Source of the DNA: Rhynchosporium graminicola
Taxonomy: Eukaryota > Ascomycota > Leotiomycetes > Helotiales > Ploettnerulaceae
Reading direction: 5' to 3'
DNA: 64,000 nucleotides
NCBI GenBank assembly: GCA_900074885.1
Contig: FJUW01000027.1
Coordinates: forward strand, 124,001-188,000
Both the position numbers and the translations under genes were made by a program. How positions within the stretch are numbered: the stretch's first letter is position 1; each line of letters opens with the position of its first letter. The notes under the pieces were generated by a model that was not told the origin of the DNA, did not search any database, and saw only the letters and a list, made by a program, of their open reading frames with translations. Shown piece by piece: positions 8,523-50,580 of this stretch.

Positions 8523-9328
8523 ATTCTCCTAGGGAAAACTAGAGAAGAAAGTATTTAAGGCTCTAATAGAGAAGTTTTATAATACTTTGGTACTTATATA
8601 CTAGGATCCGAGACTTCAGATATTCTTAGAGACTAATTATAGTAGATTCGCGATAAGAGGTGCTCTCTTATAAGAAAAGGACAACTCCGACGATTAGTAG
8701 GCTTCTTCGCTTAGAAGCTGAATAAAGCTGAAATTAATTATAATATCTATAATAAGGAGATACTAGTAGTAATTACCTACTTGAAATTCTAGGCTCTCGA
8801 GTTAAAAGTATATAGCCTCTTTATAATTTAGATAGATTATAAGAACTTTAAGTATTTTATAACTAAGTAATAGCTATTAGAGTATTAAGTATACTAGTAT
8901 AAGACCTTAGTACTATTTAAGTTTACTTTAGTATATAGGCCGGGATCCGAAGCTATTATCCCGGATATCTTATTATAAAAGGAGTAAGATATATTAAGAG
9001 CGAGCGATATAAATTCGAGGTTCCGCAGGTTTTTGGACCTAGAACGTGTAGTAAATAATCTAGCCTTAGAAAAGGAAAATAAGATAAGAGTAATACTTAT
9101 ATCTACTTAGCTATTAATTATACTCTCTAGCTAGATTCTTACCTTAGATCTAGTAGTAGCTAGAGGCCCTTTCTAGGATAAAGAACTAAACGACTTATAG
9201 GATACTATAGTATAAGAGGATATAATATATTAAACTATATTCCGCTTATTATAAGATAGAGTCCGATCTTTCTTAAGTAAAATTAAGATTAAAATCTAAG
9301 TTAATAACTATAATATAGATATAAAGAA
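8523..9328 (+). pseudogene. Gypsy C, RT end and RNase H fragment
   Basis: Continues, in frame, the Gypsy C polyprotein that ends at 56871 on the minus strand. The pre-RNase H block FKALIEKF and the RNase H start LETDYSRFAIRGAL (about 8615-8660) are clear, followed by AEINYNIYNKE (about 8731-8763) and the TDHKNL-like IDYKNFKYF. The family motif QWSxxLSxYDF...YRPG follows near 8935. Numerous TAG/TAA stops at Gln positions. Cut at 9328 by insertion of Copia B; the integrase continues at 17811. Confidence 0.88.
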
Positions 9329-9558
9329 TATCGTACACTTTCACCTGTTATATATAGTCACGTTATGTCTGATCACCTGCATAGCCTAGTGTATACTCAT
9401 ATGATCTCCTTATATATTTAAAGCAAGCTTTTTCTCTTTCTTCTAAAGGGATAACGCTCTCTATAATTAATATTTAGAGACAACTTCAATTCTCTATCTC
9501 CTGATACTTTAAAGTGATCTTTCATAACTAATAAAGCTTACCTTACTTTTATACTATA
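9329..9558 (+). repeat. 5' LTR of Copia B (230 bp)
   Basis: Begins TATCGTACACTT and ends TTTATACTATA. It aligns end to end with 17581-17810, differing almost only by transitions. The terminal TA dinucleotides are best read as RIP-mutated TG and CA. Confidence 0.9.
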
Positions 9559-9960
9559 GTTAAGAGCTATATATTAATATATCGCTTTTAAAGCTACCTG
9601 TTATATATATAGAAGTAAAGCTTTATTCAAGCTTTCGATTACTTGAGTTACTTATTCAGGCCTTTTATAATATATTAATTAACGTTCTATAAAGCTTATA
9701 TCAGCTTTTCAACTACTTAAACTATATCTTTTAACGATCCTTCTAATAATTCACTTGATCTGAGTAATAAGATAATCTGCAAAAAGCTAGAGTAATAGCT
9801 AGATTAGATCTCCTATGTTTAATTTATAGCTATAATAATCGGACTATAGTAATGTATAGACCTAGATCTACTAGACTAGGTCTCCCTAGCTAAGCTTCTT
9901 TAGATCTAACTATAATAGCTATAAGAGATCGCAGATAGTAAGAATCGAAGCTCTAAAGTA
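9559..9960 (+). other. Copia B leader and presumed gag start, unreadable
   Basis: AT-rich sequence between the 5' LTR and the first readable gag frame. No start codon or convincing primer site could be fixed. Confidence 0.4.
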
Positions 9961-12900
9961 GACTATAATATAGAAATAAAAGCTTAGGAGCTTAAATTAG
10001 TTCAATAGGCTAAGGAGCAGATCTCCGAACTAACTAGAAGCACTCGAGACATAAGTCAGGTGCTCGATCTAACTTCGGCACGCTCTATTCTAGCTAAACT
10101 TAAGAAACCTGCTATAATTACTATAGTATCTCGGAAAGCCGAAGTAGAGATCGAAAATAAGTAATTTAAACTCGATCTCGCTACTAATAGCTAAAAGGCT
10201 ATTACTTACGCTAAAATCTACGTATAGGTAGAGAAGACTATATTACTGACCTACTTAGCTCCTGCGATTAAGGGATAACTAGCTGAAAAGAGAGTAAACT
10301 TTTAATACCTTTTAAGAGCTTTAAAATAAGAACTCTATTGAACTAATACGATTATTTAATCTAATATATAGAAAGCTTATAGGCTTTATCTTACTATAGG
10401 GGTATCCGCTAGAAGTAAAAGAAGAAGTAGTAATTTAAACTCTTAAGCTTAGATCGTTAAACTTCAAGCTCCAATTAGAGATTAGATACTTTATAAGGTC
10501 CTGGATATCGAAAGATCCCTTAGAATTATAGACTTCCTAAATATAGTTAAATCTTTCGACTACTTATAGGTAGATAACCTTCTGATTAAGTATTAAAGAG
10601 CTAAGTTATATAGAAGACCCTCGCTATATACCCTTAAGGAGCTTACTAAGGAATTATATATAAGTTAAGTTAATTATATATATTAGGAGTTTTAAAGTAG
10701 TATAGGAAAAGGTTAGAGCGTTTTCTTAACGCTTAGATCTCGAGTTAGTACTAATATTAGCTTATCTCACGCTATTACTAGTAGATCAGAACGTATTAAG
10801 CACTCCTATCTATATATAAAAGATAAAACTTATTTCTAGAAGCTAATAGACTATACTAAATTGCAGCTTACTATATGCGGATAGGTCTATACTACTAGTA
10901 AAGATAATAGTCTAATCGCAGTTAGAGCTTAGGATCCTAAAGTAACTTTAGTAATACGCTAACGTTTTATCCCTAGTAAATAGAAAGATCTCCGTGCTAG
11001 CTTTAGAATAGATCGACCGATCTCCTAAGTAACTTATAATCTCCTTATTAAAGTAGTAAGAGATTCTAAATATAAGATAAGCTTCCAAAGAATATCTTAG
11101 ATAAGAATATAAAGCGAGATAGAAAGAAAGTAGAACTAGTTATAATACTTTTCCTTAATAATAATTAGGAGCTTATAGAATTACTAGGGATCTATCTAGT
11201 TCAGGGAGGAGCTTATCCGCTTTCTTAATCTACCCTTTTTAATAACTATAGAGCTACTAACCTAGTTAATAATCGTGATCTCTTAGTTAAAGGATCTTTT
11301 ATTAAGTTAGAGATTAATAATTATATAGAGAGTAGAACATTCTAAGTCCCTATTAGCGGGCGCAGAACCTATCTAATAAAAAGAGTCCTTTCAGGACTAG
11401 ATAAGAAGTACTTTAACTTTAAACTTTATAATATTATAGTAATAGATAGTTTTTATACTAATATTATCTTAGAAGCTCGATTATTAGACTTAGGGATCAA
11501 GTATTATAGATAGATTATACTTTACGCTAAGGAGAAGAAGGAATCCTATAGATCTCTCACCTAGTTATTCGGAAGCTTAAATAAAAACAGAATCTTATAT
11601 TCTTTAAATATAAAGTTCGTTTAAACTATTAACTTTCAAAATAACTCTCTTCTTTAAGTATAGTAAGTATAGTAGTCTATCTTATATAGATATACTTATC
11701 TCTGGATTTATCTATTAAGAGATCTATTATAAAATTAGCTTAAAGAGTAATTAGTAGAAAGGATTCTGAGAAGATATAGTATCTAAGAGCTAGTTATCTT
11801 ATACTAGATGCTCTTAGGAAGCTTATAAGCTACGCCTAAGGAATAGTAATTACTAAAGGGGTAGGAAAGTATAAATACGAGTATTATATAGTTATATATA
11901 CTTTATAAAGGATCTCTAGATAGCTACTGGAAAGAAAATCCCTTTATCTATTTTAGAGGATAATATAGGATTTATTCGACTTTCTAGTATACTAGAGGAG
12001 ATTATAATTACTTCTAATGAAGTGCGAGTATAATAGATTAATTATTACTTTTACTTTAAGAACCAAGGAATACGATAAAATCTTTAAGTATCTCGAAGCT
12101 TTTAAAGCTTAAGTAAGGAGGTAATTTGGCCTTACTATTTATATATTTAAATATAATCAGAAGAAGGCAGTTATAGTAATTTAAGGATTCATATACTATT
12201 AGATATAGTATTTAAAGCTCGGAATTGAAATCGAGCTCTTACTAGCTTATACGCATAAGCTAAATAGTGGAATCGAAAGAGTAGGATCGGAAATGATATC
12301 TAAAGGAATTTATATACGACTATTAGCTAATCTCCCGGATTTCTTAGGTCTTAAGTGCGCTTTAGCTACTACTTAGCTATTTAATAGATTACCTAGGAGA
12401 GGGAACGATTAGAGATTACTTCTTAAAGAGAATAATAGATAGTTTCATAACTATTTCTGATTTTACGATCTAGTTATTATTACTCGCTTAACTATAGATT
12501 TCAGATTAAATTAGAGCTTGATTTATATATATATTAAGTATACTTATTAATAAAGGAAAGAATAAAAGAATAAGAAAATCGAGCGTTTAAAATCTCAGCG
12601 AGAGCTTATATCGGGTATTTAGTGGGCTATATAGCCTCTAATATCTATAAGATCTAGGTTCCCGCGCTCTAAAAGATTATTATTACGCGGAATATATATT
12701 TTTAATAAAGACGAATTCTATATCTCTTCTCTAGAGGAAAGAACTATAATTACTAAAGAGGAGGCTTAAACGATCTGCGACTTTATTAAGGAAGCTGAAA
12801 TTCAACTAGTTTAAGCTAAGCTCCTTAATAGTATTTCAGAAGATATCCCTGAAGAAGTCCCTTTAGAGATTAGGTTAAATAAAGGAAGATCAGAAGATCT

Positions 12901-15640
12901 CCTTAATCCTTTAGTTCATTTCGCAGAAGCTTATGATACTCGAGAGGGTCAGAATCTAAGGGTAAAAGGAACTAATAACTCTTCTAGAAATTAGCTTATT
13001 TTTACTAGCCTTTAGACCCCGGATACTACTCTATTAGTAGATATATATAATGAAGAGGTAATAAGGTAAGGCTATTATATATTAATCCTAGAGCTTGCGA
13101 TAGGTATAGTATAGAGCTTAGGGGAGCTAGCTATAGGTAAGGAAATACTACTTATAGACTGCGAAAGGGATATATAAATTAAGGATAAGCGATATACTTA
13201 CCTCTTAAATAATCAAGTCACTAAAGGGGCACTTATATCTTCTAATTAAGTTACTAAAGAAGTACTTATATTAATAATACCTCGATTATCTAGGATTAAG
13301 GTTCGAATGCTATATAAACCTCTACTAGAGGGGCACTAAGTGATTCTCGATTATTCGACTAACGAGCCGGATATAGAATCAGATTCGATTAGATCTTCTA
13401 ATAACTCTATCGAGAGATTATTAGAAGTTTAAAGCTTAAATTCTGAAAAGAAGCTTTCAAAAGCTAAGAAGAAAGCTATAAAGAAGCCTAAGTATCTAAA
13501 GAAGGTAAATAGTACTCTAGTATTTTAAGTACTAAGTGCTATAATAAACTCTAGGCGTATAGAGAACCCTTATCGAAAGATCGGGGGTAAAGAAACTCGG
13601 AGTGCCTAAGTTAAGAGCGATCTCTCTTATAAGGAACTCTAAAATAATCCTAAGTTATAAATAGATCCTTAAATCTCTATATTTATACTTGATTAATATA
13701 TAGATATAAAAGGAGGTGCTTTAGACCTGAGAATAATACACGAAGTGATCTAAGTATCTTTTAAAATATTCTAGATACTTAAACTAGATAATTTAATAAT
13801 AGCTACTACTTTAGAAGCTTAGCTTTTAAATATTAATAGAAAGCTTAAACTTCTAAAAATCAAGGTAGTAGATCTCCTACTAGAACTAAAGAGATTTAAT
13901 AATCTTAAGAACTATCTAATAAAAGCTTAGTTTTCTAAAGATATAGATCTAGAGATAGGAAATATAAAGAAATAAGGCTACTAGGAATCTAAGATATACG
14001 ATTAGTATATAATATAAACGCTAGTTCCTCTGATATAGGTTTTTAAGTATAAACCTAATAAAGATAGATATATTAAAAGATATCGCTCTCGAATTAGTTA
14101 GAGGGATCTTTAAAGCGAAGTAATAATCACCTTAACTTACGCTAGTACGCTTAATATAAAATTAATCCGAATAGCAATAGCTCTTATAGTATACTTCGAT
14201 CTGGAGATTAAGTGCTTTAATATTATAAATACTTTTATTAATACCTTAAGGGATATTAAAGGAGAATGAGTATATTATTCCTTTCTTCCTAGAAGATTAA
14301 ATCCCGGAAAGGTACTTAGAGTCGATCGCGCTCTCTACGGAATAAGAGATTCTCTATACTTATAGTATAAACATATAGCTAATACCTTAACTAAACTTAA
14401 GCTATCTCTATATCTAGAGGAGTCTTATATATTCATAGAGAAAGATTATAAACTAATAGTCATATTCTATATAGATAATATATAAGTACTCTTCTATAAT
14501 AATAATAAGGAGCTCAGGCAGGGCTTTATCAATTAGCTAAATACGGAATACGATATACATATTCTCGGAGATATTAAGTAATTCCTTAGTATTATAGTAC
14601 TCTATAATAGAAAGCTTAAAACTATTTCACTTATATATAATTAGTTGTTGTACGGACTTAATAGGGTGTAAATACTCTCTAGGTATTTCCTGACAGCCGT
14701 GCTGTTCGTATCAAACGACAGCCTCGCTTATGTAATTGTCGCCAAGGAACGCCCTCTAATAGGGAGAACTCCTTCTATAGTTACATGAATCAAGACTCTT
14801 ACACTACTGTAATTCCTCACGTACTCGTAATAACTGCTCGACATTAGTATATTAAGAAAATCGCGTGTAAGTTTAATTAAATAGATAGAAACTGCTTAAT
14901 TATACTACTTCGTTAACTTAATCTTATTAAGAACTTAAACTAAGCTTTAAAGAAGTTAATTAAAGTATTTCAAGAGAGAGTAAGATTAGTTCTCTATACC
15001 GTAATTATAGTTCGACTAGACGTATTATATACTATCTTATAGCTCTCTAAGTACTTAACTAATCCCTTATTAGACTATTTTATAGCTATCTACTAGCTAA
15101 TCTGATATCTTTACAATACTCGATTTCTAGGTATTATTTATAGAGGAGAATACTTAAGAGCTTTAGTAATAGCTTCTGATACTTTATTTATAAACGATCT
15201 AGACTCTAGAAGATTATCCTAAGGATATCTAATCCTTATATATAGAGGATTAGTGATTTGGAAAGCTTTAATATAAGATATAGTTATAACCTCTATAACT
15301 AAGGCTGAACTGCTTATATTAGCTAACCTAGTAAAAAAAACTATAGCTCTTTAGAAATTCTTTAAAGATCTTGCCTTCGATATTGGAGAGACTTAGGAGA
15401 TCTTTTATAATAATTAATAAACGATTAGGCTAGTTATAAATAAAAGCGAGAGAATAATTACTAAATTATAATATATCGATATTCAGAATATATAGCTTAA
15501 GTAAGAGCACGCTAAGGGATTATTTGCAGTAACTTATCTGCTAACTAATAATATACTAGCAGATAGTCTTATAAAGAATCTCACTCGATAGAAATTCAAA
15601 GCTTTCAGATCTCTTTTAAATTTTGGAAATTATAGATCAT
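9961..15640 (+). pseudogene. Copia B gag-pol polyprotein, heavily RIPed
   Basis: The gag-like part (about 9960-10700) is Glu/Lys-rich with a helical block (KEQISELTRSTRD near 10015). Integrase is readable about 12070-12420: YTHKLNSGIERVGSEMI matches the Copia YTPQQNGVAER block, followed by LANLPDFLGLK and FNRLPRRGN. A Ser/Lys-rich linker precedes RT (about 14020-14640) with FDLEIKCFNIINTF, ALYGIRDSLYLW and FYIDNI (YVDD family, last D changed to N). The RT/RNase H junction is split by a solo LTR. RNase H (about 15110-15640) shows VIWKALI, TKAELLILANL and the tail ADSLIKNLTR. The frame is interrupted throughout by TAG/TAA at Gln/Trp positions. Confidence 0.85.
14646..14843 (+). mobile_element. 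Solo LTR (198 bp) inside Copia B, TSD TTAGT
   Basis: TGTTGTACGG...GCTCGACA with perfect TTAGT duplications at 14641-14645 and 14844-14848. GC-rich and full of TpG and CpA compared with the RIPed host element, so it either arrived late or escaped RIP because it is short. No other copy of this family is in the window, so strand and family are unassigned; plus is nominal. Confidence 0.88.
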
Positions 15641-15785
15641 AAATAGAGGAGCTTTAAGTATAGTATCAAGTCGCTTACTTAGCGTACTTTTTTTATTATA
15701 TAAAATTCAGACTAAAAAAAAAACTAGGCTTTTAGGGATCCGCGAATAATTATATAGGAAGATTAAATACTTACTTTAAGCTATT

Positions 15786-16915
15786 CTTCTAGCGCTTAAT
15801 CCGGTACTTAGTAAAGTACTTTCTATCCTTAGAAGGAGTTCTGCTACTATATAATCCTATAAACTTACTAGCAGAAGCTCTATCTGCACTACTATTACGA
15901 TCTCTCTTCTTTAGAGAAGGTCTAGGTCTAATAGATTTTATATTAAAGATCTCGACCTCAGATTCTGACTCTATATCGTTATCGCCTTTCTTCAGAGCTC
16001 TCTTAGCTTTTATATCTTTAAGCACTTATCGAAGATTTATATAATAGTTCTTAAGAAACTAAGTAAATTAACTAAGGTATTAAAAGATCAAATTATTAGA
16101 AAGCTTACGGATTCCTTAGTCTTAGTTCTCTTTCTATCTATAAAATCCTTAGCCTAAGTAATTATCTGCGGAGTAGTAGGAATATAGCTATAAGAAGCAT
16201 AGGAGTAGTATCTCTTTAACTTTATAGCTGTATTTATATAGTAGCGACCTTTCAGTCTAGTTCCCTTTATACCTATACTAATATATCTCTAGTAAAGATC
16301 TTTATTCTCTTTACTTAGTAGATATTAGATTTAGATAATATCAGTATTAGGAGATTACTTACTTATCTTACGCTTTACTCTAGATCTGGGGGTAGTAGTA
16401 ATAGACTTACGACTATAGGAAAGTATAATCATCTTCTTTAAAGAAGAAGAAGCTTTTAGTATATAAGGAGATAAATTAGTTCGCTAGAGAAATAGAGAAA
16501 ATTCATAGGCAGAATAATCAGATAAATCGTTAAGGGGATTATATTACTTAGGCTTAAGCTTCGAGTTATCTCTATTAGTATAATTAATAGATCGAAAGGA
16601 ACGGATTTCAGGATCATTTCGGGGTGGAGCTACTAGGCGACGAGGAATAGAAGGGATATCTTCCTTAGAGTAAGGGCTATCGAACTATATCGCAGATTTT
16701 TAGTTAAAAGATTAAAGTAAAAGATAAAAAATAATCTTATAATATCGCGATAGATATATTTAATCGCAAAAGATCTTCTAGTAGTAGCAGAGGATTCTAT
16801 AACGCGATGATATGATATAGGACGCGCCTCGGGCTCTTTAGACGAGTTCTTCTTTCGTGATCTCTTATTTAGAGAATTAGAAGATATAATAATAATAATA
16901 GAAGATTTGAAATAA
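15786..16915 (-). pseudogene. Antisense accessory ORF in the Copia B 3' region
   Basis: Between the end of pol and the 3' LTR, the minus strand gives long coding-like stretches. Near 16910-16735: SSNSLNKRSRKKNSSKEPE. Near 16690-16080, in another frame: RRLVAPPRNDPEIRSFRS and TTPRSRVKRKISK. The open 78-codon stretch 15789-16025 contains ESESEVEIFNIKSIRPRPS. Residual stops are TAG/TAA at likely Gln sites. The start codon is lost. The protein would be basic, Ser/Arg/Lys-rich, with no domain I recognise. Transcribed opposite to pol, it could be an antisense accessory gene or a captured gene. Confidence 0.45.
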
Positions 16916-17000
16916 AGTTATTAATAAAATGAGAGAGATAAGCGCGAGTAATTATAATATATTATATTTAAAGGAAGAAGAACCTCTCTATATGCGAGAT

Positions 17001-17038
17001 AAGGGGTTTATATACCTATAAGGGGTTTATATACCTAT
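17001..17038. repeat. 19-bp tandem duplication
   Basis: AAGGGGTTTATATACCTAT is present twice, head to tail, in the Copia B 3' region, upstream of the antisense frame. Small and of unclear significance. Confidence 0.8.
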
Positions 17039-17570
17039 AAGGCTTCGGCTACCTACTCTTATGAGTAAATAAGGCTAGCTGCCTGGAGTTCTTCTTCGGT
17101 CTAGAAGACTCTTCTACCTGGAGTAATTTTTTTACTCTTTCAGAATTAATAAATAATAATAAGGTAAGATCACTCGATTAGTTACGATAGCTATTTATAA
17201 CTCTCTAAGATTATATAACCTGAACTTCGATTTTAATTCATTCTAATGAACGCTTCTTTACGGTATCTTACCTTTACTCTTATACTCGACGATCACTTAA
17301 AGCTTAGAATCAGCTAATTTTATACTATATATAAGGCTATAGCCTTATAATTTTCTTTATTTACTTAACTCTACTCTTCAATAGTAACTTCGACTTTGAT
17401 TATTTCACGCACTTTATCTGTACTTTCTTTTGTTAATTTATATAAATAGTAGAATCTACCCTCTCTATTTAGAAGCTTCTTTACTTACTTAGGGTAGTTT
17501 ATATTCACTAACTAGGTAAAGGTATACGTATAGTTAATAGTAATCTCTAGACTTATACTAAGAGATTACT
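17039..17570. other. Copia B 3' non-coding stretch
   Basis: AT-rich sequence upstream of the polypurine tract (AAGGGG, 17573-17578). No coding frame is supported. If the antisense frame is real, its promoter would lie here or in the 3' LTR. Confidence 0.4.
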
Positions 17571-17580
17571 ATAAGGGGTA

Positions 17581-17810
17581 TATCGTACACTTTTACCTGT
17601 TATATATAGTCACGTTATATCTGATCACCTGTATAGCTTAGTATATGCTTATATGATCTCCTCATATATTTAAAGTAAGCTTTCTCTCTTTCTTCTAAAG
17701 GGATAACGCTCTCTATAATTAATATTCAGAGATGACTTTAATTCTCCATCTCCTGATACCTTAAAGTGATCTTTCACAACTAATAAAGCCTGCCTTACTT
17801 TTATACTATA
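17581..17810 (+). repeat. 3' LTR of Copia B (230 bp)
   Basis: Same length and ends as 9329-9558. Preceded by the purine tract ATAAGGGG and followed by the AAGAA target duplication. Confidence 0.9.
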
Positions 17811-19300
17811 AAGAACTACTTATATTACTATAGAAATTTATAAGTATTAAGCGCCTTAGTTATACTAGAGTCCGACTATAAAATAATAGACCTCGAGACT
17901 CTCGAAAATAATACTCTAAGGATAAGGCTTATCTAGTTTATCTGTAACTTACTAGTCTACAGTTATCTAGGGCGGGACTCTACTATATTAATACTAGTAG
18001 GACGCTCCTTTTACTAGCTATTATAATCGAGGTATATAAGATAATTCTTAAGGAACTATAACTATTATAGGAGAAATAAAGAATAAAGGGAATATAAGCA
18101 CGGACTCTTAAGACTAATACTAGTTCCTAACTAATTCTTCTAGGAGATATCTATAGACTTTATAATCGAATTACTAGACTCTTAAGGTAATTATTACCTT
18201 TAGGTGATTAAAGACCGATTAAGTAAATAAATAGTTATCGAAGCGATACTTAGTATAAAAGTAGAGGAATATACTAAGAAATTTATAGAATACTAAATAA
18301 GAAACTATAGGATACTACGAGCGATTATAAGCGATAGAAGTACTAACTAGATAAGTATATTCTAGAAGACTTTTTATTACTTAATTAGCATATAATAGAG
18401 ACTTAGCTCCGGATATTACTTATAAACCGATAGAGAATTAGAAAAACTAAATTAAGATATCTAAGCTTATTTATAGAACTTTATTAACTAAGAGTAGTCC
18501 GACTAGAAAAAGTAGCTTCTTATAGCTTAGTTAGCGTTAAACGGATATTACTACGCGGGCCTTAGGATAAGCTTATTCTTTGCCATATATAAGTACGAAG
18601 CGCTATTACTTATCTTATCAGAGATAGAACCCGAGATTAACTTCTAGTTACTATCGAGCGAATAGGTAGTAGTATTCGTAGAGAAGATAAAGAAGATTAC
18701 TAACTTATACTAGTTGAATATAGTAGCGTCCGCTTAGAAATGGGAGGATAGCGCTAATAAGATAAGGACCCTAGCTTTAGTATACTAGAAGAGAGATAAG
18801 ATATAGTTAGATCTATATAACTACTAGATAAATCGACTAAAAAAGAGTCTTAATATAAAGTATACTAAGTATATAGTAGATAAAGTATTATCGCTAGTAG
18901 CTATTCGTTTATCTGAGGTCCTTAGTAATATTTATCTAGTATTTTATATAGATCTATTATAACTAGCGAGCTATAATCTATTACTTAGGCAAGAGACTAA
19001 CGATAGTTAACTGGAGCTCGTACTATTCGAGACTTATAAAGAATAGTAAGTAAAGGAGATTCTTTATACTAGAGATAAATCGAGAAGAAAAGAGAAAGGT
19101 AGAGAGATACTAATAAAGTGGATAAGTTATTACGAACTTACGTAGGAACTTATTAAAGACCTATCGGATACTATAGCTATAGACGAGTTTAAAACTAAGT
19201 ATAGTGATATTAAGTACTACGATAAACCTAGATAAATATAAGAGAAAAAGAAGAAAAAGAGAGGATCCGCTTAATTGTAAGCAAGTTAATAGTATTAATA
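17811..19300 (+). pseudogene. Gypsy C integrase and chromodomain
   Basis: Continues Gypsy C in frame after Copia B. The integrase zinc domain is mutated (His/Cys to Tyr, NYNYYRRNK near 18060). The catalytic core follows: EISIDFIIELPDS (about 18145-18184), ISDRSTN (about 18333-18353) where the family has SDRGxQF, and SGYYLTDRELE (HPQTDG region, about 18410). C-terminal GPY-like sequence leads to a chromodomain near 19055-19210 (EILYTRDKS...ILIKWISYYELTQE), the targeting module of chromoviruses. Stops are mostly at Gln/Trp. The catalytic Asp of ISDR is still encoded. Confidence 0.87.
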
Positions 19301-20568
19301 AGCGGAGTTCGGATTTCTTTTTATAAAATTTTATTAATTAAAAAGGTAATATAATATAACTTAATAAATCTCCTTAGGATCTTATACTAAATTAAATTAA
19401 CTAGCTTAGTTAGCTCTATATAGGGACCTAAAACTAAGGCAAGAGGGACTTTACTAGTACTATAGCAGTTAGTAATAAAGAGTAAATAGAGTCCGGGAAA
19501 CTTATATCTGACTTTACTAAGTAATAATATTAGTAACTGAATTAGTTACTTCAGTAGTAATAAGCCTAAAACAAGCGATTAGCCATAAAATATAAGCGGA
19601 ATCCGAGGATAGTTATAAAGAGAGAAGACTAGCGGCTTAGAGAGACTTTAAGGCTTTCTAGGCCTTAAGGACCTTACCGAGATCGCGATAAGCGTTAGCG
19701 CTAAATAGGTAGTTAGCGATAGAAAGTAAGCGTAGTCTAAAAACTTATATAGTATCTCTATTAGCAGAGCGAGTCTAAATAGTATAAGTGATATACGCTA
19801 TTTAAAGACTAAGCAGTTAGTAAAGTTTTCTTAGCGGAGCTCGGGATAAATATATAAGTTTTTATAGTTCTTACGATTATAAGAATAAGTCGTATAAGCG
19901 CAGAAGTAAGTAGACTATATAAGTTAGCGTATATCAGGCGAAAAAAGATAGGATCCGACTTATATTCTATTAATATAGTTAACCCTAGAGAGAGTATAAG
20001 TAGCGCAGTAGATAATAGAAGATATCTGACTCCGATTAGTAGTAAGCGGGATATAGTGTTTTTAAAGCGGAGATAGTAAAAGGAAAGGAGTAATCGATAT
20101 TAGATAATCTTATTAACTTATAGTTAGTAATAGTTAATTAAGAAGAATGGAATTAGTTTATAAAGTGATAGGAGAAGGTATATATATAGCTAAGGCAGGG
20201 GTATTTACTAATTCAATTAATAATGGAAGAGAGAGCGATAATAAAGAAATAAGAAGATATAATTAGCCTTACTATTATTATAGGCGGGAAATAAATAGAG
20301 AAATTATATAAACGAATAATTAGAAGCCTTATACGACTTTAATAGTATTATTAATTATTCCTTTACTATCGGTTTACTATCGTACTCTATCGGTTTACTA
20401 TTATTATTAACTTCTAAGCGAAATCAGCACGAAGCGAGGAAAAGAGTTGCAGATATAATAAGCTCTAACGAATCGGAACTATAATATAGGACTATATATA
20501 ATAGGGTGGGATATAGGTTATTAGAGGCGAACTCTAATATAAGATAAGCGAAAGGAGGAAGGGAGTAA
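19301..20568 (+). pseudogene. Gypsy C 3' region with possible extra sense-strand ORF
   Basis: About 1.3 kb separates the chromodomain from the 3' LTR. One plus-strand frame reads as a charged, Arg/Leu/Gln-rich protein interrupted mainly by Gln-type stops, e.g. AFQALRTLPRSR (about 19645) and LAIESKRSLKTYIVSLLAE (about 19715), continuing to LYKRIIRSLIRL near 20335. No domain is recognised. It may be an accessory ORF or simply biased AT-rich sequence. A purine tract (AAAGGAGGAAGGGAG) immediately precedes the LTR. Confidence 0.35.
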
Positions 20569-20736
20569 TATAAGAGGCGAGCCTTAGGATTAAGCACTAG
20601 CGATACTTATGCTTACTAAGCTTAGCGGCACTCGCATATTTTCCTTCGGAGCTAGGCTAGAACCTAACTCTCTCTTATATCGAACTTCTTAAATACTACA
20701 CTTGATCATCTGCGTACGCGTTACTCACCCGTGATA
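20569..20736 (+). repeat. 3' LTR of Gypsy C (168 bp)
   Basis: Starts TATAAGAGGCGAG and ends CACCCGTGATA. It is the same length as, and collinear with, the reverse-strand LTR at 59628-59795. Followed by TAGAC (20737-20741); the complement GTCTA sits just outside the other LTR (59796-59800), so the two are the ends of one insertion separated by the inversion. Confidence 0.92.
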
Positions 20737-20741
20737 TAGAC

Positions 20742-24900: not shown

Positions 24901-24988
24901 ACTAGCTTTCTTACGCACGCGTATCGTCTACTGCTCGTAAGCAGATCCTCTTTCGTTTAATTAAGAATATTAGGAATAAGTTAATTCT
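24661..24988. repeat. 164-bp tandem duplication next to the E 5' LTR
   Basis: Two head-to-tail copies (24661-24824 and 24825-24988), each starting CCG(A/G)ATCTACTATATATAG and ending near AGGAATAAG. They cover the leader/gag start just inside the 5' LTR. The copies differ by a few transitions, so the duplication predates at least some mutation. Confidence 0.88.
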
Positions 24989-24990
24989 AA

Positions 24991-35683: not shown

Positions 35684-35817
35684 TCTTCAAGTTTATACTT
35701 AGTATAGGCCTTCTCTGTATAGCGTAGTCTCCTGCGTTTAGTAGCTCTAGGCACAGAGGTATAATATAAGTAGATATTTACTATCTTCCTAGACGTAGGT
35801 AAAAGAGTTATAGATAA

Positions 35818-36079
35818 TGTGACGCTTACTCTAGAAAGGTCTCAAAACTACCTGAGTAATAAGACCTCACATTACTATGAATATGAAGTAGTAAGAATCA
35901 CTTGAGAATCTATAACTAAGGAGTGAAGAAGTAGAGAGAGAATAGAAGTATATACATGAAAAGGGGCCCCTAAACTCTACTCGTGTAATCTCGCTTAGCA
36001 GTAAGTGTTTCTACTAATAGGGAGAGGGTAAGTGTTTCTACCAATAGGGAGAGACCTCTAAACCTGACCAGTCGTCACA
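35818..36079 (-). repeat. 5' LTR of Gypsy F' (262 bp)
   Basis: Same length and ends as 29462-29723, and the same 27-bp tandem duplication near 36002-36054. Followed by GAAAT. Confidence 0.93.
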
Positions 36080-36084
36080 GAAAT

Positions 36085-38484: not shown

Positions 38485-38618
38485 TCTTCAAGTTTATACT
38501 TAGTATAGGCTTTCTCTATATAGCGTAGTCTCCTGCGTTTAGTAGCTCTAGGCACAGAGGTATAATATAAGTAGATATTTACTATCTTCCTAGACGTAAG
38601 TAAAAGAGTTATAGATAA

Positions 38619-38863
38619 TATAACGCTTACTCTAGAAAGGTCTCAAAACTACCTTAGTAATAAGACCTCATATTACTATGAATATGAAGTAGTCAGAATC
38701 ACTTGAGAATCTATAACTAAAGAGCTAAGAAGTAGAAGAGAGGAGAGAAGGTATATATAAAAGGGGCTCTACGGAGCTCTCAGTAATCTCGCTTAGTATA
38801 CCCGATTGGGAGTACTTGCTAGTCCCACCAAGTCCATGCTAGTTACATGCCACAACCGTCACA
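38619..38863 (-). repeat. 5' LTR of Gypsy F (245 bp)
   Basis: Collinear with 25361-25605. The outer end keeps AACCGTCACA, while the inner end is RIP-mutated (TATAACGC for TGTGACGC). Followed by GATAT. Confidence 0.9.
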
Positions 38864-40659: not shown

Positions 40660-40822
40660 TATTATTATTCTCTAAGTAATTATAGTTATCTATTCTGTCT
40701 TCTTAGGCCTTAATCTATTAATCTAGTTTACGCGGAGGTCTAGGTTTACTTAGGTTAGTAGTATAGAAGTCTCTAAGCTTATACGAAGTACTTATTAAGT
40801 CAGAAGCGTTATACTAAGTTAG
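40660..40822 (-). pseudogene. C-terminal end of Gypsy H pol
   Basis: Continues the H integrase C-terminus on the far side of Gypsy I, over about 160 bp, to the region where the antisense frame begins. Short and highly mutated; assigned mainly from continuity across the GTTAG target site. Confidence 0.5.
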
Positions 40823-41244
40823 TGTAACATTCCTAGTTCTGACTGGTACGCGGTGTACACGCTCGTCAGTTAGTATTAGCTATAAAGTAAAGTAAATAAG
40901 AAATTCGGTTCTTAATTGGAATTAAGATATTATAAGCAGGTATTAATTACTATATGAATTTGAGCACGAAGCTCCTATCTAATAGCAGAAGTGCTAGTCT
41001 TATATAGAGCTTTCGTTCCCTTATGCTAGCTATGCAAGACTGTCTTATAGAGCGTGCAAGCTCTCGCGACTCATCTAGTAGTCTAGTATATCACGTGATC
41101 CTGGATTATCTATAGCTATAATACTATTATTACTATAATACAAGTAAGCGTATAGTACTACTCGCTAGTTTATACTATAACTGTATTAGTGCCTTTCTAG
41201 TGCTAGGACGGTTTTAGTACTAAGAACTAGGCCGATTCGTAATA
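40823..41244 (-). repeat. 3' LTR of Gypsy I (422 bp)
   Basis: Collinear with 46998-47419, with the same length. The outer end keeps TGTAACATT; the inner end is RIP-mutated (GTAATA for GTGACA). Contains a GC-richer core shared by both copies. Confidence 0.92.
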
Positions 41245-41333
41245 CTATCCCCCTTCTATCTTAGCGTGTCCCTACGCTTAAGTATACCTAAGGAAATATC
41301 GATATCTACTTATAGCTATCTCCTTCCTTTATT

Positions 41334-41915
41334 ATGCCCCCCGAACGCTTAACTAAACGAGTTGATTATATTATACTCGGAAGATAAATAGAATTAAGTA
41401 GTAAAATTATAGTTCTATATACTAGATATGAAAAGGCGGAATATAAAGAGTATATATCGCCTCGCGACTTTAAATTAACCCGGTATAGTTATTACGCCCG
41501 ATTGAATAAATCCTGCGATATTCGTATAAAGAACCGGATACCTATAGCTTCCGAATAGGAAAGTCTGGATTCCTAAATTAAAAAATTAAAAGATAAGGAA
41601 AACTCGACTATAGCTAAGTTCTTTACGCGAATTATAGAGTTAAAAAAACAGAAACGTTTCTTATACGAAAGGCGGCAAAAGATAATTACCGCTAGTTTGA
41701 ATTTAATAGCTAAGCTCGATACTCTTAAAGCTCTAGAAAAGGAAGAAAAAGAGAAATAGGAAAAGAAGGAAGTACTTAATAATACTAAGTTAGTAAGTAT
41801 AGAACCCTCTAGTTCTGACGTCCCTATCGACCTCTTATTCGACCCGATAGTCGACCTTCCTTTCGACTCTGCGGACCTGCTCTAAGCAGATCTGGGTTTT
41901 ATCAATAGAAATTAG
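41334..41915 (+). pseudogene. Antisense accessory ORF of Gypsy I, coiled-coil protein
   Basis: ATG at 41334 (MPPERLTKRVDYI) to TAG 41913-41915, 193 codons, interrupted by TAG/TAA codons at likely Gln/Trp positions. It lies directly inside the 3' LTR and is read opposite to pol. The middle is a charged helix likely to form a coiled coil (FFTRIIELKKQKRFLYERR, then LDTLKALEKEEKEK), and the tail is acidic and Ser/Pro-rich (SSSDVPIDLLFDP...DSADLL). From memory, unchecked, small hypothetical proteins with this LRKQKRFL-type helix and acidic tail are common in fungal proteomes, so this may be a widespread retrotransposon-linked family. Function unknown. Confidence 0.6.
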
Positions 41916-41949
41916 CTAGTAATACTAAGTAGTAAAAGCTTAACTTAAG

Positions 41950-44900
41950 TTCCTATATATTTTCCGAATATAAGTAGTTCTTCTATTTCACTAGGTATCT
42001 GATAATACCTTGTTTATACTAATAGTCTAGTAGCTCCTTTATATCGTATTCTACGAGTAGATTAACTAGTTTAGTATATATCTTCGGGGCTAGTAGTACT
42101 CCTGATAATGCTTTTTCTAATAAGGATATATAGAATATCAGGAATATCTTCTTTATTATAGCTAGTAAGTAGAGTTTATAATTTAAAGGTCCTTTAACTC
42201 GTTTGATTTTAAATAGTCTAAGTTTCTTATAGTCTAGCTTATCGCTTAGTCTCTATATATTAATATTTTTTATAGAAAGTAAACCTTATCCTCCTTCTAT
42301 AGTATTAGCTTCTAACTATAGTTCTTATTATAGTAATACGTATTCTTCTCTATTATAAACTGGAGTTCTTCTGCAAGTTCCTTATAAAGGTTCTAGATAT
42401 TCCTAACCTGGATACGAGCTATATTATTATTCTTAACTATTAAGTTAGGTTCTCTATAAGTAATAAGTTTATAACTATAATTCGCGAAGAATAATATAAC
42501 TCTTATTATTTGCCTAGTTAAGCTATTATATATAAACTCTACTAATAGTAATAGTTCTACCTAATTATTTTATTAATAATTAAAATAGTAGTATAAGTAT
42601 ACTTTAACTACTTAGTTCATTCTTTTATTTTCTCTATTAGCTTAAGGATAGAAAGCTATTAATAGTTTCTATTTAGTCCCTAGGAACCCTATTAAAGTAT
42701 TCTAGAACTTTAATATAAATAACTTATCTCGATCCGATACGATTTCTTCGGGTACTCTATACTTAGAGACTACCTCCTTAAGGTATACTTATACTAGATA
42801 TTCGGCTATAAGAGTAGATAAGACTAGTAAGATTATATACTTAGTAAGTCTTTCTATGATAATAACTATTATATTATAGCTAACTCCTATAACCGGGTCC
42901 TTCGATAGCGGTAATAGCCCTACGAAGTCCTATGATATTAATTTCTAAGATATTAGTAGTATTAGTACTATAATTATCTACCTATAAGATATATATTAGG
43001 AAGACTTATTTCTAATATAAGTATTATAGTTAGCTAGTACTTCTTTAACTATATAGCGGAGTCCTTCTAACTAGTAGTTTCTTAAAATCCTCAGATATAT
43101 TCTCTATATCCCTTAGTATCTATACGCAGGAAGCTCGTATTATTCTTCAATATATACTTCTACTAAGCTCAGCGGAAGCTAAACTTTCCTATTAACTCGT
43201 ATAATACTATTCTTAATCATATTTCTTATAACGAGTTCCTTAGTCTTATCTAGGGATATTCTATCCTTCTTCTAGGCCTCTTTTAAAGTAATATACTAAA
43301 GTCTCTTAATTTCTTATTCAATCGTAGCAGCTTCTCTAACGTTAGTAACTATATCTCTATTATCTAGCTATCTGAATAAGGCAGTCTTATTATAAACCTT
43401 ATTATTCTTATAACTTAGTAATCTACTTAGAGTATCTGCTTATATATTATCCTTTCCTTATATATACTTAATAACTAGATTAAAAGAAGCGAGTTCCTCG
43501 GACTATTAAGCTAATCGACGATTATCTAAGACCTTAGTAGTTATAAAGGTTCGGAGATTCATATAGTCGATATAGATAATAACTAGGAACTTAGCTTCTT
43601 ATAAGTATAATTTCTAGTATTTAAGTGCTTTAATAATCGCTATGAGTTCTTTCTTATAGATATTATAATTCTACTTAGCTAGAGATATTTTCTCTGAAAA
43701 GTAAGCGACTAAGTATAGCTATCCTTCGTTATCTCGCTATAAGTATACTACGCTAGTATAAGTATCAGGGGTATTTATTTCTATTATACTTTTCTTTTCT
43801 TCGTCGAAACTATATAGGATTAGTTCTTTTATAAATTCTTTCTTAATTCTCTGAAAAGCTTCCTTATACTAGCTAGTCCAGGTAAAAGGAACGCCCTTCC
43901 TTATTAAGCTCGTAAGTAGTTTAGTAATCTCAGAATAGTTTCTAATAAACTATTAGTAGAAGTTAGTAAAACCTAATTATAACTTTATATCCTTAATATT
44001 CTTTAGAGATTCCTATTCCTTTATAGCTTTAATTTTCTCTAGGTTAATACTTATCTCTCTTAGGCGAATAATATACCTTAGAAAAGTAATTTACTTAACT
44101 AAGAATTCATATTCCGATATCTTTAGTCTAGAATCTATCTTATATAGTACTTCTATAACTCGGGTGAAATAGCTCTAGTATGCCTCGATAGTTTCCGAGT
44201 ATATTAAGATATTATCTAAGTAGTATATAGCGAATTTCCTAATAAAGTCCTTAAGAATATCGTTATTCTATCTTTAATATATAGCTAGAGTATTACTTAA
44301 GCTGAATAGTATTACTATATATTCTTATAGCCCTAAGGGTAATACGAAAGCAGTCTTCTACTTGTATCCCTTCTTAATTCGGATCAAATTAAACGCGTTA
44401 TATTAGTCTAACTTAGTATATATCTTTACTCTAGCTAGCTTATCTCATAAGTACTAAGCATTTAGTAAAAGGTATATATCCCTTATAGTTCTATTATTAA
44501 TTATCCGATAGTTTCTATAAAGTCTCTCTTTAAGATCTCCTGCTTTCTTAACTACTAGTATATTAATAGCATAAGGTGACTTAGATTTCCGAATCTATCT
44601 TTTCTTTATACTTAACTCCTAATACTCCTTAAGCGTCCTTATAGTATTATAATTATAACAGTAAAGTTTCTCTATAATAAGTATAAATCTATCTTTAAAG
44701 TTTATTTTATAATCTTAAGGTTTATACTTAAGTAGAGCTCTTATATCCTGCGGATCCTCGAACAATTTCGAGAACTTCCTATATAGTTCGAGTAGCTATT
44801 CCTGAATATTATTTATCTAACTAGGATAATTCCTAAGTTCTATCTAACTAGGAACCCGACTTAATTAGCTAGAGTCTATTAGCGTTATTATTAAGAAAGT

Positions 44901-46950
44901 ATCGCTAGCCTCTCTTTTACTAGCTAGTTAATTACATTTATATTTATAGCTACTAAATATAACCCTCTTAGTTACTTAGTCTACGCTAAGATTATAGTTA
45001 TATAGCTATAATATTCCTAATACGATATCATATTATCTAGTAAGTATAATATCGAAGTAAAGCGTTTCTTCGTATCTATTAACGATTATCTTTATTCCTC
45101 TTATCCTTCTGTGGACCTATCTATCTAATCCGGCGCTTTTTCTATCTAATAAAGTAAGGTAGTATAGTTTCGGGTTAATAGTAATAGGAATATTCTATTT
45201 CTCGATAAAAGTTAGATTTATAAAGCGTCCTATAGCTCCTGAATTAATAAGGGCTTTTATCTTAATACTATCTATTATAACTAGTAAGATCAACTGATCG
45301 AACTCTCTAGTAGTAGTAAGCTCTAGGTATAGTAGTTCTATTACGAAGTAATCACGTGCTTCTTTAATAATTCTCTCTATTGTTTCGTCTAAATAAGTCC
45401 TAAGGCCGGGTTTATAAGTAATCAGGATATAGGGTATATAGTAATAGAGATTAGCCTGCCTTTAAATCGGATCTAATACTATTCTTTAATAAGTAGCTAA
45501 TTCAAATAGGTATTATCTTCTCTACTAATAATATTCCTCTTCTATTTCCTTAGTAATAGCCTAAGTATCTTTAATTCGAAGGAACTAATCTAGTTATTCA
45601 GATTCTTTTAGTTCTAGTTCTTCTTCGAGGTTAGCTACGTAGTAGTCTAGTCGTTCCTTAATATCCCCGGTATTAACTTAGAATATAATAGTAGCAATAT
45701 CATAGTAAGTAATAACGCAGTCTATACCCGGGTTAGATATATTATAGGTTTAATAATACTCTATAAAACTAGACTTAGTTCTATTATAAGCTTATATTCT
45801 TCTTCTATTATTGTGATTTCGGAGAGTCTAGTTCTTATTATTATATAGAAGATTATAGTATGATAGTTTCTTTTATTTATAATACTCTAGCTTTCTTAGT
45901 CTTTATCTAGAAGTTTAACTAAGTTCTCTTCGAATTCTTCACTAGATTTATAAGCTATAAAGTCCTGCGAACTCCATTCTACGCTAGAAGCTTCTTAGTA
46001 ATCTAGCTTCCTTTCTACTAGTTCGAATTCTCTCTTAGGTTTATTCTAGGGTTTTCCTCTCTACTTCTTCTTCTGAGAATAATCATATGCGAGGTATCCT
46101 AGCTTACTATATATATAGTAAAAACCCTTCTCTCGACGTTTATCTTTCTTAGCTTAGTCCTTAGATCCTCTCTCTACTTTATCTAATTCTATTAGATTAT
46201 AGTAATTATATTTATTACTTAAGTAAAGCTAGAAACTTCCTTAATACTTATTATCTTATTATAGAAATTAGGGTTTCTGGAGGTAAGTAAATATAAAGTA
46301 TCCTTCTTTTTCCTTCACTTATTTCTAGATTCGTTTATCAATAGTAGTAGATAATCTAATTAAGTCCTCTAAGTTATCTAGTTTACTAGCCCTAGAGAGC
46401 TCATTCTTAATATAGTCCTTAAGGCCTCGATAGTATTAAGCTCTTAATCTACTATCTATCTAATTTAACTATATAGAATATTAGTAGAACTCAGTAGTAT
46501 ATTTATAGACGGATCCTTATTATCGAATTCCGAGCAGGTGCTTCTCGTCTTATTCCTTCTTATTAGGGTCTCCGAAGACTTCTTTAATAGTATTAGTAAA
46601 GCTTGCGGGAGTTCGAAAGATAACTCGGCTTTTTTCAGTTATAGCGATAGAATAGACCCTAGATAAGTATAGATTAACTAAATAGTTACTTAAAGCTAGC
46701 TTAATCTAGTAAGCTATAGTATCGCAGAGGAATAAGGCAATCTATAGGACTTTAAGGGAGTCCGCTTCGAAGTTATCTCTATTAAAGGCGAGGTATATTT
46801 AGTACTAGAGGATAAACTATTCTAGTTTATTATAGTTCCTATAATAAGTATTAGGTAAGTTCATATGAAGCGGTATACTCTTATCGACCTTATTAACCTT
46901 ATCTGGCCTACTAGTCTAGGAGCTTTCTCTTACGATAGATCCTTCTTTAG
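41950..46950 (-). pseudogene. Gypsy I gag-pol
   Basis: Reading leftward: gag (about 46900-45500) with a ruined zinc knuckle near 46080-46140, where C-x2-C-x4-H-x4-C has become Tyr at the Cys and His positions (FYYIYSKLGYLAYDY). Protease INSGAIGRFINLTFIEK is near 45190-45260 (family DSGA). The RT active-site block FAIYYLDNILIYSE is near 44190-44235. RNase H (about 43900-43600) and integrase (about 43450-42300) follow. TAG/TAA codons are very dense. Confidence 0.82.
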
Positions 46951-46997
46951 TAGCTATTTCGTTCTTACTAATAATACTTTAAGTAAGGTGCTTAAAG

Positions 46998-47419
46998 TAT
47001 AACGTTTCTAGTTCTAACTAATACGCGGCATATAAGCTCGTTAGTTAGTATTAGCTATAAAGTAAAGTAAATAAGAAATTCAGTTCTTAATTAGAATTAA
47101 GTTATTATAAGCAGGTATTAATTACTATATGAATTTGAGCACGAAGCTCCTATCTAATAGCAGAAGTGCCAGTCTTATATAGAGCCTTCGTTCCCTTATA
47201 CTAGCTATATAAGACCGTCTTATAGAGCGTGTAAGCCCTCGCGACTTATCTAGTAGTCTAGTATATCACGTGATCCCGGATCACCTATAGCTATAGTACT
47301 ATTATTACTATAATACAGGTAGGCGTATAGTACTACTCGCTAGTTTGTACTATAACCGTATTAGTACCTTTCTGGTGCCAGGACGGTTTTAGTGCCAAGA
47401 ACAAGGCCGATTCGTGACA
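46998..47419 (-). repeat. 5' LTR of Gypsy I (422 bp)
   Basis: Collinear with 40823-41244. Its outer end keeps TTCGTGACA, while the inner end is mutated (TATAACG for TGTAACA). Followed by GTTAG. Confidence 0.92.
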
Positions 47420-48238
47420 GTTAGGTCCGGATTATAGCCTAGGTAGCTAATTTAATACTTCAGATTATCTCTTAGGAATTATATAGCGAGTATATCTTAT
47501 AACTCTTATTCTTCTTAAGTAGTAATAATCTCCGGGAGTAGGTTTAGTAGCTCCTAGCTTAGTAACAGGTTATTCGGGTCCTTAAAGAGTAATTCTGAGG
47601 CGAATATATTCTATATAGAAGATCTAAGAGGTAAATCCAGCTTATAGAAGTATCCGATCTTAGCCAAGACTTAGTATAATCCTACTTAGAAGCTAAATAG
47701 CTTCTTACTTAGCTAGTAATTCTTAAGGTTCCTTATAGAGAGAAATACCTTATCTCTAACTTCCTAGTCCATACTACGCTATTTCGGATCAGTTATAGCG
47801 CTTATCCTTTACTAGGTAGCTAATATATTAGCTTTTATAAACTCGATAGCGGATTTAGTACGTTTAGCTAAGGATTTAGTATTAGTATAGTTAAGCTTCT
47901 CTTATAGTATCGATATAGTAAGTTAATTCTAATCCTAGCTATTCCGTAGTAGTATACTATACTTAAGGGTATATAGCGCTATACTAATAGAATCATAAAG
48001 TAGGGTTACTTAGGCGCGATCTATTATTAGTAGTAGTTCGCCCTAGTTACTCTAGTAGTAATTAACAAAAGGTCTAAAGCGTTAGTTAATATACTAGTTC
48101 ATAATCTCTATTTATCTATTAATTTACTAGTAGAAGGAGGTAAAGAGCTTAATCTTAACTCTAATTATATAGTAAAACTCTTACTAGAAGGATAAGATAA
48201 ACTAAGCTCCTCGGTCAGATATAATTATCGCAAGGTTA
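47420..48238 (-). pseudogene. Gypsy H integrase, C-terminal half
   Basis: Minus-strand integrase of the Ty3/Gypsy type. It enters at the second catalytic Asp (IISDRGA near 48200-48230), continues through the NRQIEIMN block (family QTNGQTERxNQ, near 48110) and NQGELLLIIDRA, then a C-terminal module (IRNLKNYQLSKKLFSFQVG and FYKLDLPLRSS, family GPY/F type). It is cut on the right by the 3' LTR of Copia D and on the left by Gypsy I. Its RT and gag should lie beyond Copia D, i.e. left of the window in the present, inverted arrangement. Confidence 0.82.
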
Positions 48239-48411
48239 CGTTGATCTTCAGAGTAAGGCATAGAGGTAGTAATCGTGTGAATGATATTAGTTGCATTGTA
48301 GTACTAATTACTATGGAGAGTCGACAGAAGATATTATCTAGGAATATCCGCACGGACTTTGCACGTGACTACAATCACCTGATCCATGCTAAGACCCATA
48401 TCCTCGCAACA
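48239..48411 (-). repeat. Probable 3' LTR of Copia D (173 bp)
   Basis: On the minus strand begins TGTTGCGAGGATATGG and ends GATCAACG (expected CAACA). Preceded in that orientation by the purine tract TAGAGGGGTG. GC-balanced and rich in CpA and TpG, unlike the flanking H sequence. The 5' LTR is outside the window, so no pair confirms the limits. The small ORF at 48241-48435 lies in it and is not believed. Confidence 0.6.
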
Positions 48412-48624
48412 CACCCCTCTATAGAGATACTATAAAGTCGGTAACTTCTACAGGTACGAGTAATCCAATTTCTTCTGTAATTAGTCGATTATACTATCGT
48501 ATGCGTACGTATAGTAATACCCCTAGAGACTAGGACCATGCCTCGATATCACGTGAACTAGATAAACCCCAGGTTCCGTAATTCCTTCAAGATAGTCTGC
48601 CTTCCCGATTGATATCTATACCCC
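48412..48624 (-). other. Copia D 3' untranslated stretch
   Basis: About 210 bp between the end of pol and the LTR; no coding frame seen. Little RIP damage. Confidence 0.5.
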
Positions 48625-50580
48625 TTATTCTAGGTGTAAAACAGTTATATTCAGTATTGCTATAAAGGCCTTAAGGTCTTATAAGCCAAGTGGTTTAGTG
48701 AAACCGTCTGCCGCGTTCTCTTTTGAGGGTATATACTAAGGGTCTAGGTAATCTCTAGCAACTTCCTATCGCAGGTAATAGAACTTGATATCGATATGCT
48801 TAGTACGCTAGTGTAATTCAGGGTTCTCTGATAGAGATAAGGCTCCCTAATTATCGTATTATATCTCTATACTCCTAGAGTCTGGCTTATTATAGCCTAG
48901 CTCCTTTAGTACTTAGCGTATCTATGAAGCTTCTCTAGTAAAGGCGCATATAGCTATATACTCTGCTTCCGTAGAAGTAAGAGCTATAGTAGTCTATCGC
49001 TTTGAAATTACTAAGAAAACACCTCCTGCAAGGAAGAAACATACTCCGGTGTGCGATACTCTATCGATTCGGTTACCGGCCTAATCAGAGTCACAGAAAC
49101 CTCTTAATTTCATTTTCTCTCTATTAGTAATATCTCCTCCGTAAGTCGTAGCGTAGTACTTCGTACCTTATAGGTACGCAAGTACTCTCTTAGCGCTCGC
49201 AAGATATTAAGGTAATAGATTTATCAGAAATTATAATAATATAGAGTAGTAGTATAGTATATCCCAGCGAGTATAAGCTAGGTACTAAAGACTACCGTAA
49301 AGCTATTAATATAGCTTGATTTCTTATAGAGTAGCTACTCCCTTGAATTTGACTATAGAAACCTCTGAACTAGTAGCAAAAGGCGTATCGGCGCTCTTGC
49401 AGTTAGTCATTCTAAATCGATCTAATATCTTGTCGATATACGCATCTTAGCAAAGAGAAATCGTCTTCTTCTCTCTATTACGTATAATTCTGACGCTAAG
49501 GAAGTATTTAGCTAGTCTAGCTAGTAGAATATCGAATACAGTGAGAATCTTCTTCTTAAGCTCTTCAAGAGCTATTCTAGCTTTTAAGATAACTAGAAAA
49601 TCGTCGACGTAAGTAATGATAATTATTCTAGTTTCTCAGTTAATATATATGTAATTATTGGTTTATAAAGGTATAAAGTCGATAATACCGAACTCCTTAT
49701 GTAGTATCTCTTACTAGAGGCGTAGAGACTACTTCAGACCGTATAGAGCCTTTAGCAAGAGCATATATTTATCGTCTATAAGTCTACGCCTAAATTATCT
49801 ATAAAATAGCGGCAATTTGACGTATATCTAGGTGTCGGCTTCACTATATAAGAATGCTGCTACTATATTAAACTGTTCGACTTCTAAGTCGTACTCCGCC
49901 GCAACTGCCAAGCCTATCTTCTAAGTAGAAGATTTATAGACTCCGGTATACGTCTAATCGTAATCGTAACTAAATCGTTACGTATAACCTTAGACTATAA
50001 ATCTGACCTTATATTTATCGATTTTGCTGTCCATATCTCTCTTAGTCTTGAAAACTAGACGAGAACCTAGCACTCTGCACCCTTTTAGCATATCAGAGCG
50101 ACTTATAGTCTTCTAAGTCGACTTCTCCTTAAGAGATCGGTACTCCTTAATTATAGCCTTCTTCTATTCTAGCTAATTAGCTCTCTTTATAGCCTAATCC
50201 AAAGTAGTCGGATCATCTAAGAATAGAGACTCTTCTTAAGCCGTATAAAAGGCGAGTCGATACTGACTAGTACTCTCTATCTCTTCTTCCAATAGAGAAA
50301 CAGCATAGAAGTAGCTGTTATTTAGTTCCGGGGTTACCTCAGGTATCGAAATTGGAGTCGGATTATTACGGCTAGAGCGTATAGCTCTAGGGACGTACTC
50401 CGGCATATAGTTCTTAGATCCAAGAGGCCTACTACGCTTCTTTTATATAGTAATTTGCTCCGGAATATCGACCTCTAGTACTAGAACTTCGTCCTCAACT
50501 ATAGATTCGGCATCCATACTATCCGTACTATCGACTTCATCTTCCGAGACTATACCTGTATCAGGAGTAGTAGCGCTAGT
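48625..50580 (-). pseudogene. Copia D pol, 3' part (RT and RNase H)
   Basis: Continues element D from 2123: EVTS at the left junction joins ATTPDTG here, in frame, across ACTAG. An acidic linker (EDEVDSTDSMDAE) leads to RT: TKRDMDSKIDKYKVRF, LEVEQFNIVAAFLYSE, LLLKALYGLK and the active site TYVDDFLVILK near 49600-49640. RNase H retains FCDSD (about 49075), LTSTEAEYIAI (about 48950-48985), RTKHIDIKFYYLR and the terminal AADGFTKPL (about 48690-48720). The catalytic YVDD is intact. Stops are fewer than elsewhere and are TAG/TAA at Gln/Trp positions. The true stop codon is uncertain (TAA at 48625-48627 or later). Confidence 0.9.

Follow-up and report, generated by a model that had tools for sequence, protein, structure and literature searches.

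A probable 42-kb inversion between two inverted copia retrotransposon copies in the barley-scald fungus Rhynchosporium graminicola

In the barley pathogen Rhynchosporium graminicola (R. commune), the barley-scald fungus, a segment of about 42 kb is enclosed by two copia retrotransposon copies in opposite orientation, A and A', and has probably been inverted by a crossover between them; we put the probability of such a real inversion at roughly 0.6. The window, that is, the whole stretch of 64,000 nucleotides analysed here, corresponds to C24:124001-188000 of a genome of 55.3 Mb in 121 contigs, and the segment spans its positions 8523-50580. The segment had been delimited between inverted A and A' in initial annotation, and our observations confirm it there, exchange of target-site duplications (TSDs) and continuity of the flanks being in agreement. 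Inversion by ectopic recombination, which had been proposed as the cause, is a textbook process, of which this locus is a new instance. Three TSDs, the continuity of three elements, cross-paired long terminal repeats (LTRs) and an identical tract of 550 bp speak for its geometry, its direction and the exchange between A and A'; that the organism, rather than the assembler, was the place of the event is the part of the proposal that we infer. Reciprocal crossover between inverted repeats is the account that best fits the marks carried by A and A'.

Both copies belong to Ty1/copia, as judged from their LTRs, 5-bp TSDs and copia gag and integrase-region domains (Pfam gag PF14223 in A, SH3 PF25597 in both A and A'). 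A occupies positions 2124-8522 on the plus strand, A' positions 50581-56870 on the minus strand. Self-BLAST aligns 2171-8320 with 56742-50595 on the minus strand at 92.1% identity over 6231 columns, so that homologous copies of opposite orientation stand at both breakpoints. Read on the plus strand, A runs from TGTTGG to TTTCACA between ACTAG and ATTCT, while A' runs from TGTGAAA to CCAACA between CTAGT and AGAAT. With ACTAG/ATTCT around A and CTAGT/AGAAT around A', each element carries one TSD of its partner. The swap was thus verified in the sequence at both element ends, and the paralogue continuity described below agrees with it. We denote as X the element belonging to TSD ACTAG (2119-2123, plus strand; the other copy, in reverse complement, at 50576-50580, minus strand) and as Y the element belonging to AGAAT (8523-8527, minus strand, in reverse complement; the other copy at 56871-56875, plus strand). 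A would then be a chimeric copy consisting of the 5' part of X and the 3' part of Y, and A' the reciprocal chimera with the 5' part of Y and the 3' part of X.

A third TSD, GTCTA, marks the insertion of Gypsy E into Gypsy C. Recognised by paralogue overlap, it is found in reverse complement at 20737-20741 (minus strand) and directly at 59796-59800 (plus strand), and it pairs only after the flip. Flipping 8523-50580 therefore restores three TSDs: ACTAG, AGAAT and GTCTA.

The 3' LTR of A contains a solo-LTR-like insertion of 184 bp (8321-8504, minus strand), bounded by TG...CA and the TSD TCCAC as read in the sequence. The ends of its reverse complement resemble the terminal repeat of Gypsy E (TGTCACGGGTGA...CCCTTACA), and it is perhaps a solo LTR of a family related to Gypsy E.

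Next, we examined the host elements. Copia D, Gypsy E and Gypsy C had each been described as split by the inversion; the parts were indeed found, and in paralogues across the genome they are contiguous, at the level of DNA, in the flipped order. Copia D consists of an outer part at 1-2123 (plus strand; integrase-like ORF recognised by eye, SH3 by Pfam) and a part within the segment covering at least 48226-50575 (minus strand; weak RVT_2 match at 49450-49635). Its assignment to copia comes from PF25597 on one part and from PF07727, below threshold, on the other. Gypsy E ends near 20736 and 59795 and has terminal repeats of about 160-170 bp. It comprises an inside part adjoining A (8523-9327, minus strand), a further inside part with a terminal repeat (17833-20736, minus strand; repeat core 20569-20728), assigned by paralogue comparison, and an outer part with the other terminal repeat (56871-59795, plus strand; core 59636-59795). 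Gypsy C has an inside part at 20737-25199 (minus strand; end approximate, tested for continuity as far as 22734, with a presumed LTR stretch at 25000-25199) and an outer part at 59796-60961 (plus strand; presumed LTR stretch 60737-60954). The name Gypsy is the label of the initial annotation, the ORF pieces of C and E sent to Pfam having given no typing match; at 20754-20888 (minus strand) lies what we take, by eye, to be an integrase-like motif.

Sequence 1-2123 continues into the reverse complement from 50575 in 18 of the 38 listed genome copies that reach the end, with a gap of 0 in 15 of them. The reverse complement of 8523-9327 is followed by 56871 onward in 30/39 listed copies, and all 30 overlap by exactly 5 bases, which is the TSD. 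Finally, the reverse complement of 20737-22734 passes into 59796 onward in 24/27 listed copies, 23 of which overlap by exactly the 5-base TSD GTCTA. The neighbours as assembled are adjacent (empty site, within 300 bases) in 0/38 and 0/32 listed copies at the two outer junctions, which are the ones covered by this control. These totals refer to listed places reaching the junction, self excluded; rows not reaching or starting at the junction (3/44, 29/69 and 5/45 in the copy lists) were left out, and some of the non-continuous copies are explained by the scoring of about 40 candidates per search among the matches listed. For two of the hosts, one uninterrupted copy each was set against the window. 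A Gypsy E copy on C56 corresponds to window positions 59578-56871, then 8523-9328, then 17807-20591, and a Copia D copy on C19 to 1-2123, then 50580-48226. Both junctions are exact, nothing having been lost or gained beside the TSDs. Chance had rightly been called implausible: three TSDs, three continuities and zero counter-examples at the two control-tested junctions rule it out.

The two LTRs of one insertion start out identical, so that pairing is expected within an element. For A and A', K2P distances are 0.053 and 0.058 across the two elements and 0.091 and 0.110 within them, the values for seven control copies being 0.038-0.075. The 3' LTR of A groups in the tree with the 5' LTR of A' (support 100/98), and a tandem duplication of about 70-80 bp is common to these two only (2/18 LTRs). 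The closest LTR to the 5' LTR of A is, if narrowly, the 3' LTR of A' (94.9% vs 94.7% for the next). Against the cross-pairing of X, the tree does not resolve this pair, and the 3' LTR of A' is nearer to an LTR on C66 (95.4%). Cross-pairing of the LTRs is strong for Y and weaker for X.

Internal sequences were compared as well. In the early internal region A, not A', resembles the copies on C107, C70 and C94, and towards the 3' end A' is closer to these copies than A is. When halves of the elements were searched separately, the nearest copies among the places listed were C107 (97%) for the 5' half of A, C66 (98%) for its 3' half, C69 and C66 (both 94%; C66 second by bit score, near-tied) for the 5' half of A', and C66 and A (both 96%) for its 3' half. 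As C107 is absent from the places listed for the 3' half of A', no crosswise pairing of X results. The nearest copies of the halves fit Y loosely, X being left without crosswise pairing.

The probable place of exchange lies in the interior of the elements. Over 550 bp, A (5047-5596, plus strand) and A' (53278-53827, minus strand) are identical in the alignment, the next longest identical run between them being 156 bp, and 0/5000 shuffles in each of three ranges reached a run of 550 bp. Beside the tract, 26/501 columns differ on one side and 41/501 on the other. This is a probable exchange or conversion tract, or alternatively an assembly switch point. Among the 45 pairs of ten sequences the run ranks second, with A-C66 (1166) ahead and A-C107 (442) behind, C66 and C107 having been picked for their closeness to A. 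In switch-point mapping with eight reference copies, the best switch fell at the tract in 1/8 (C66) and at 3.1-4.9 kb in the rest; of the comparisons, the one with L043 is confined to the left side, and the one with L045 is not significant (48/300 permutations). Since this test hits the tract for C66 only, the exchange was placed by the identical run.

Long identical stretches are also shared by A with copies on other contigs. A is identical to the C66 copy over 1166 bp (5721-6887) and to the C107 copy over 442+340 bp (2895-3678) with one column between, in each case amid several per cent divergence elsewhere.

The course of events that we propose starts from two elements of the same Ty1/copia family, X, inserted in Copia D with TSD ACTAG, and Y, inserted in Gypsy E with TSD AGAAT, which would have faced in opposite directions at a distance of about 42 kb. 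The segment between X and Y would have been inverted when the two underwent a reciprocal crossover, most likely in or beside the tract 5047-5596 / 53278-53827. Both elements would have come out of it chimeric and with their TSDs exchanged, and the hosts, Copia D as well as Gypsy E and Gypsy C, would have been split. The 550-bp tract was presumably homogenised at the crossover, and the exchange appears to be young. Terminal-repeat identity rises in the nested order, from 79% in C (presumed LTR pair) through 90% in E and 94.3% in Y to 100% in the tract; for X, seated in another host, it is 96.7%. Taken at face value, and assuming that the exchange homogenised the tract, the exchange would be the youngest event. 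No difference within the tract (95% upper bound about 0.55%) against an LTR divergence of 5-6% would make the exchange roughly ten times younger than the insertions. A fuller reading, which we offer tentatively and regard as doubtful, is that the inversion is real, recent by this roughly tenfold measure and possibly segregating, and that LTR recombination is a major ongoing source of such changes. If this reading is true, the inversion could still segregate among isolates and, with mismatched TSDs in 5/15 other copies of the family, exchanges between LTR elements would account for much of the rearrangement in this barley pathogen and would still be going on.

These other copies of the A family served as a yardstick. 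Among 15 scored copies, TSDs are identical in 8, differ by one mismatch in 2 and by two or more in 5; a sixteenth, on C94, had no scorable TSD and was left out. The five mismatched copies are C56:452k, C99:57k, C56:1396k, C86:177k and C55:464k. The two flanks match different sequences in C56:452k and C86:177k (BLAST) and in C55:464k (one flank by eye), while in C19:889k, whose TSDs differ at one base, both flanks run on in a single host. Mismatched TSDs together with differing flanks indicate that chimeric copies are common here, through biology or through assembly. The five TSD-mismatched copies are thus either recombinants at other loci or chimeras made in assembly.

The main rival to a real inversion is a phase switch during assembly. 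X and Y would then be whole and the segment uninverted, the assembler having jumped between the copies within the 550-bp tract, and the tract would owe its identity either to gene conversion with no crossover or to reads that were collapsed. We consider this explanation, taken as a whole, rather unlikely. Its basis is that the published UK7 assembly, to which we take the isolate of the window to belong, is a short-read one: PMC5118889 gives Illumina 2x36 and 2x151 reads (270-bp and 3-kb mate-pair libraries), 454 reads with a mean of 377 bp, and assembly by ALLPATHS-LG and SSPACE with a contig N50 of 49.6 kb and a scaffold N50 of 800.5 kb. It is unlikely that any single read spans the 550 identical bases together with both edges, the run being longer than reads usually are, and a switch of phase at this place could yield the marks listed above. 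However, 3-kb mate pairs are able to span 550 bp, fosmids are also named in the methods (PMC5118889), and 5-8% of columns differ on both sides of the tract. That the tract is the sole A-A' run over 156 bp, and that 5/15 control copies have unmatched TSDs, at least two of them with flanks from different sequences, speaks for a switch; the copies on C66 and C107, on the other hand, share long tracts with A (1166 and 442+340 bp) and yet keep matching TSDs. Of four LTR elements inside the segment, three show, by eye, TSDs GTTAG/GTTAG, GAAAT/GAAAT and GATAC/GATAT, and the window contains no N, which also argues against an error of assembly. Moreover, random switches among dozens of copies would presumably seldom close reciprocally on one contig. 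The locus shows how a single genome can serve to test a rearrangement, through TSDs, the pairing of LTRs and paralogues elsewhere in that genome, and also where these same marks no longer tell a biological event from an error of short-read assembly.

It is improbable that the segment was turned by a more complex route, for example two successive rearrangements or break repair templated by A copies, without a single reciprocal crossover. A does share extended runs of identity with A', C66 and C107 (the latter two chosen for closeness), but both junctions are exact and a single crossover suffices. Scarcely credible is the idea that gene conversion or template switching during retrotransposition made A and A' mosaics with no inversion, the host pattern being coincidental: mosaic tracts are common among the compared copies, yet the idea fails on three 5-bp TSDs and three hosts continuous only in the flipped order, and conversion alone is ruled out as sole cause since it does not move flanks. 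Aberrant (hybrid-element) transposition was rejected, because the flanking copies are 92% identical and not identical as it requires.

A real inversion by crossover has counterparts in known systems. For the Galileo inversions of Drosophila buzzatii, the sections of Delprat et al. 2009 (PMC2775673) on their signature give opposite orientation, exchanged TSDs and terminal repeats alike between copies but not within them. With these the window shares breakpoint copies in opposite orientation, exchanged TSDs, probable chimerism of both copies and repeats more alike between than within them; unlike these, it concerns a fungal copia LTR retrotransposon, a 42-kb segment of nested elements and one genome only. 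Ty-mediated inversions in yeast, named in the introduction of PMC2775673, likewise involve LTR retrotransposon copies recombining into inversions, whereas our case is deduced from sequence only and lies between old, diverged copies. In Cochliobolus heterostrophus, also a plant-pathogenic ascomycete with mosaic transposable element copies, the relevant part of PMC4112212 presents signals of ectopic recombination by RDP-type tests, not a TSD-exchanged inversion as in the window. The titles and abstract starts of the Rhynchosporium papers searched contain no mention of the present inversion, and the word 'inversion' occurs 0 times in the main text of PMC5118889. The locus would represent a well-marked inversion bounded by LTR retrotransposons, in which the succession of events can be read from the nested elements and a candidate tract of exchange is preserved.

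As regards gene content, TSDs, paralogue continuity and Pfam searches characterise the segment 8523-50580 as nested LTR elements. Among the 30 ORF pieces sent to Pfam, 19 of them inside the segment, none was recognised as part of a host gene, though intron-bearing genes could escape such a search; the set consisted of 22 of the 68 ORF pieces of at least 70 aa and 8 shorter ones. The pieces with Pfam matches lie in A, A' and Copia D, apart from a protease-like one at 33807-34163; one DUF3724 match stayed below threshold. Two nested LTR elements were noted at 25361-38863 and 29462-36079 (TSDs GATAC/GATAT and GAAAT/GAAAT), with 25361-29459 and 29462-33555 being 80% alike. A further LTR element at 40823-47419 has TSD GTTAG on both sides and terminal repeats 91% identical, and the element at 9328-17832, inside Gypsy E, has ends of about 250 bp that are 90% identical. 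In the right flank, a tandem repeat with a unit of about 82 bp extends over 61202-61554.
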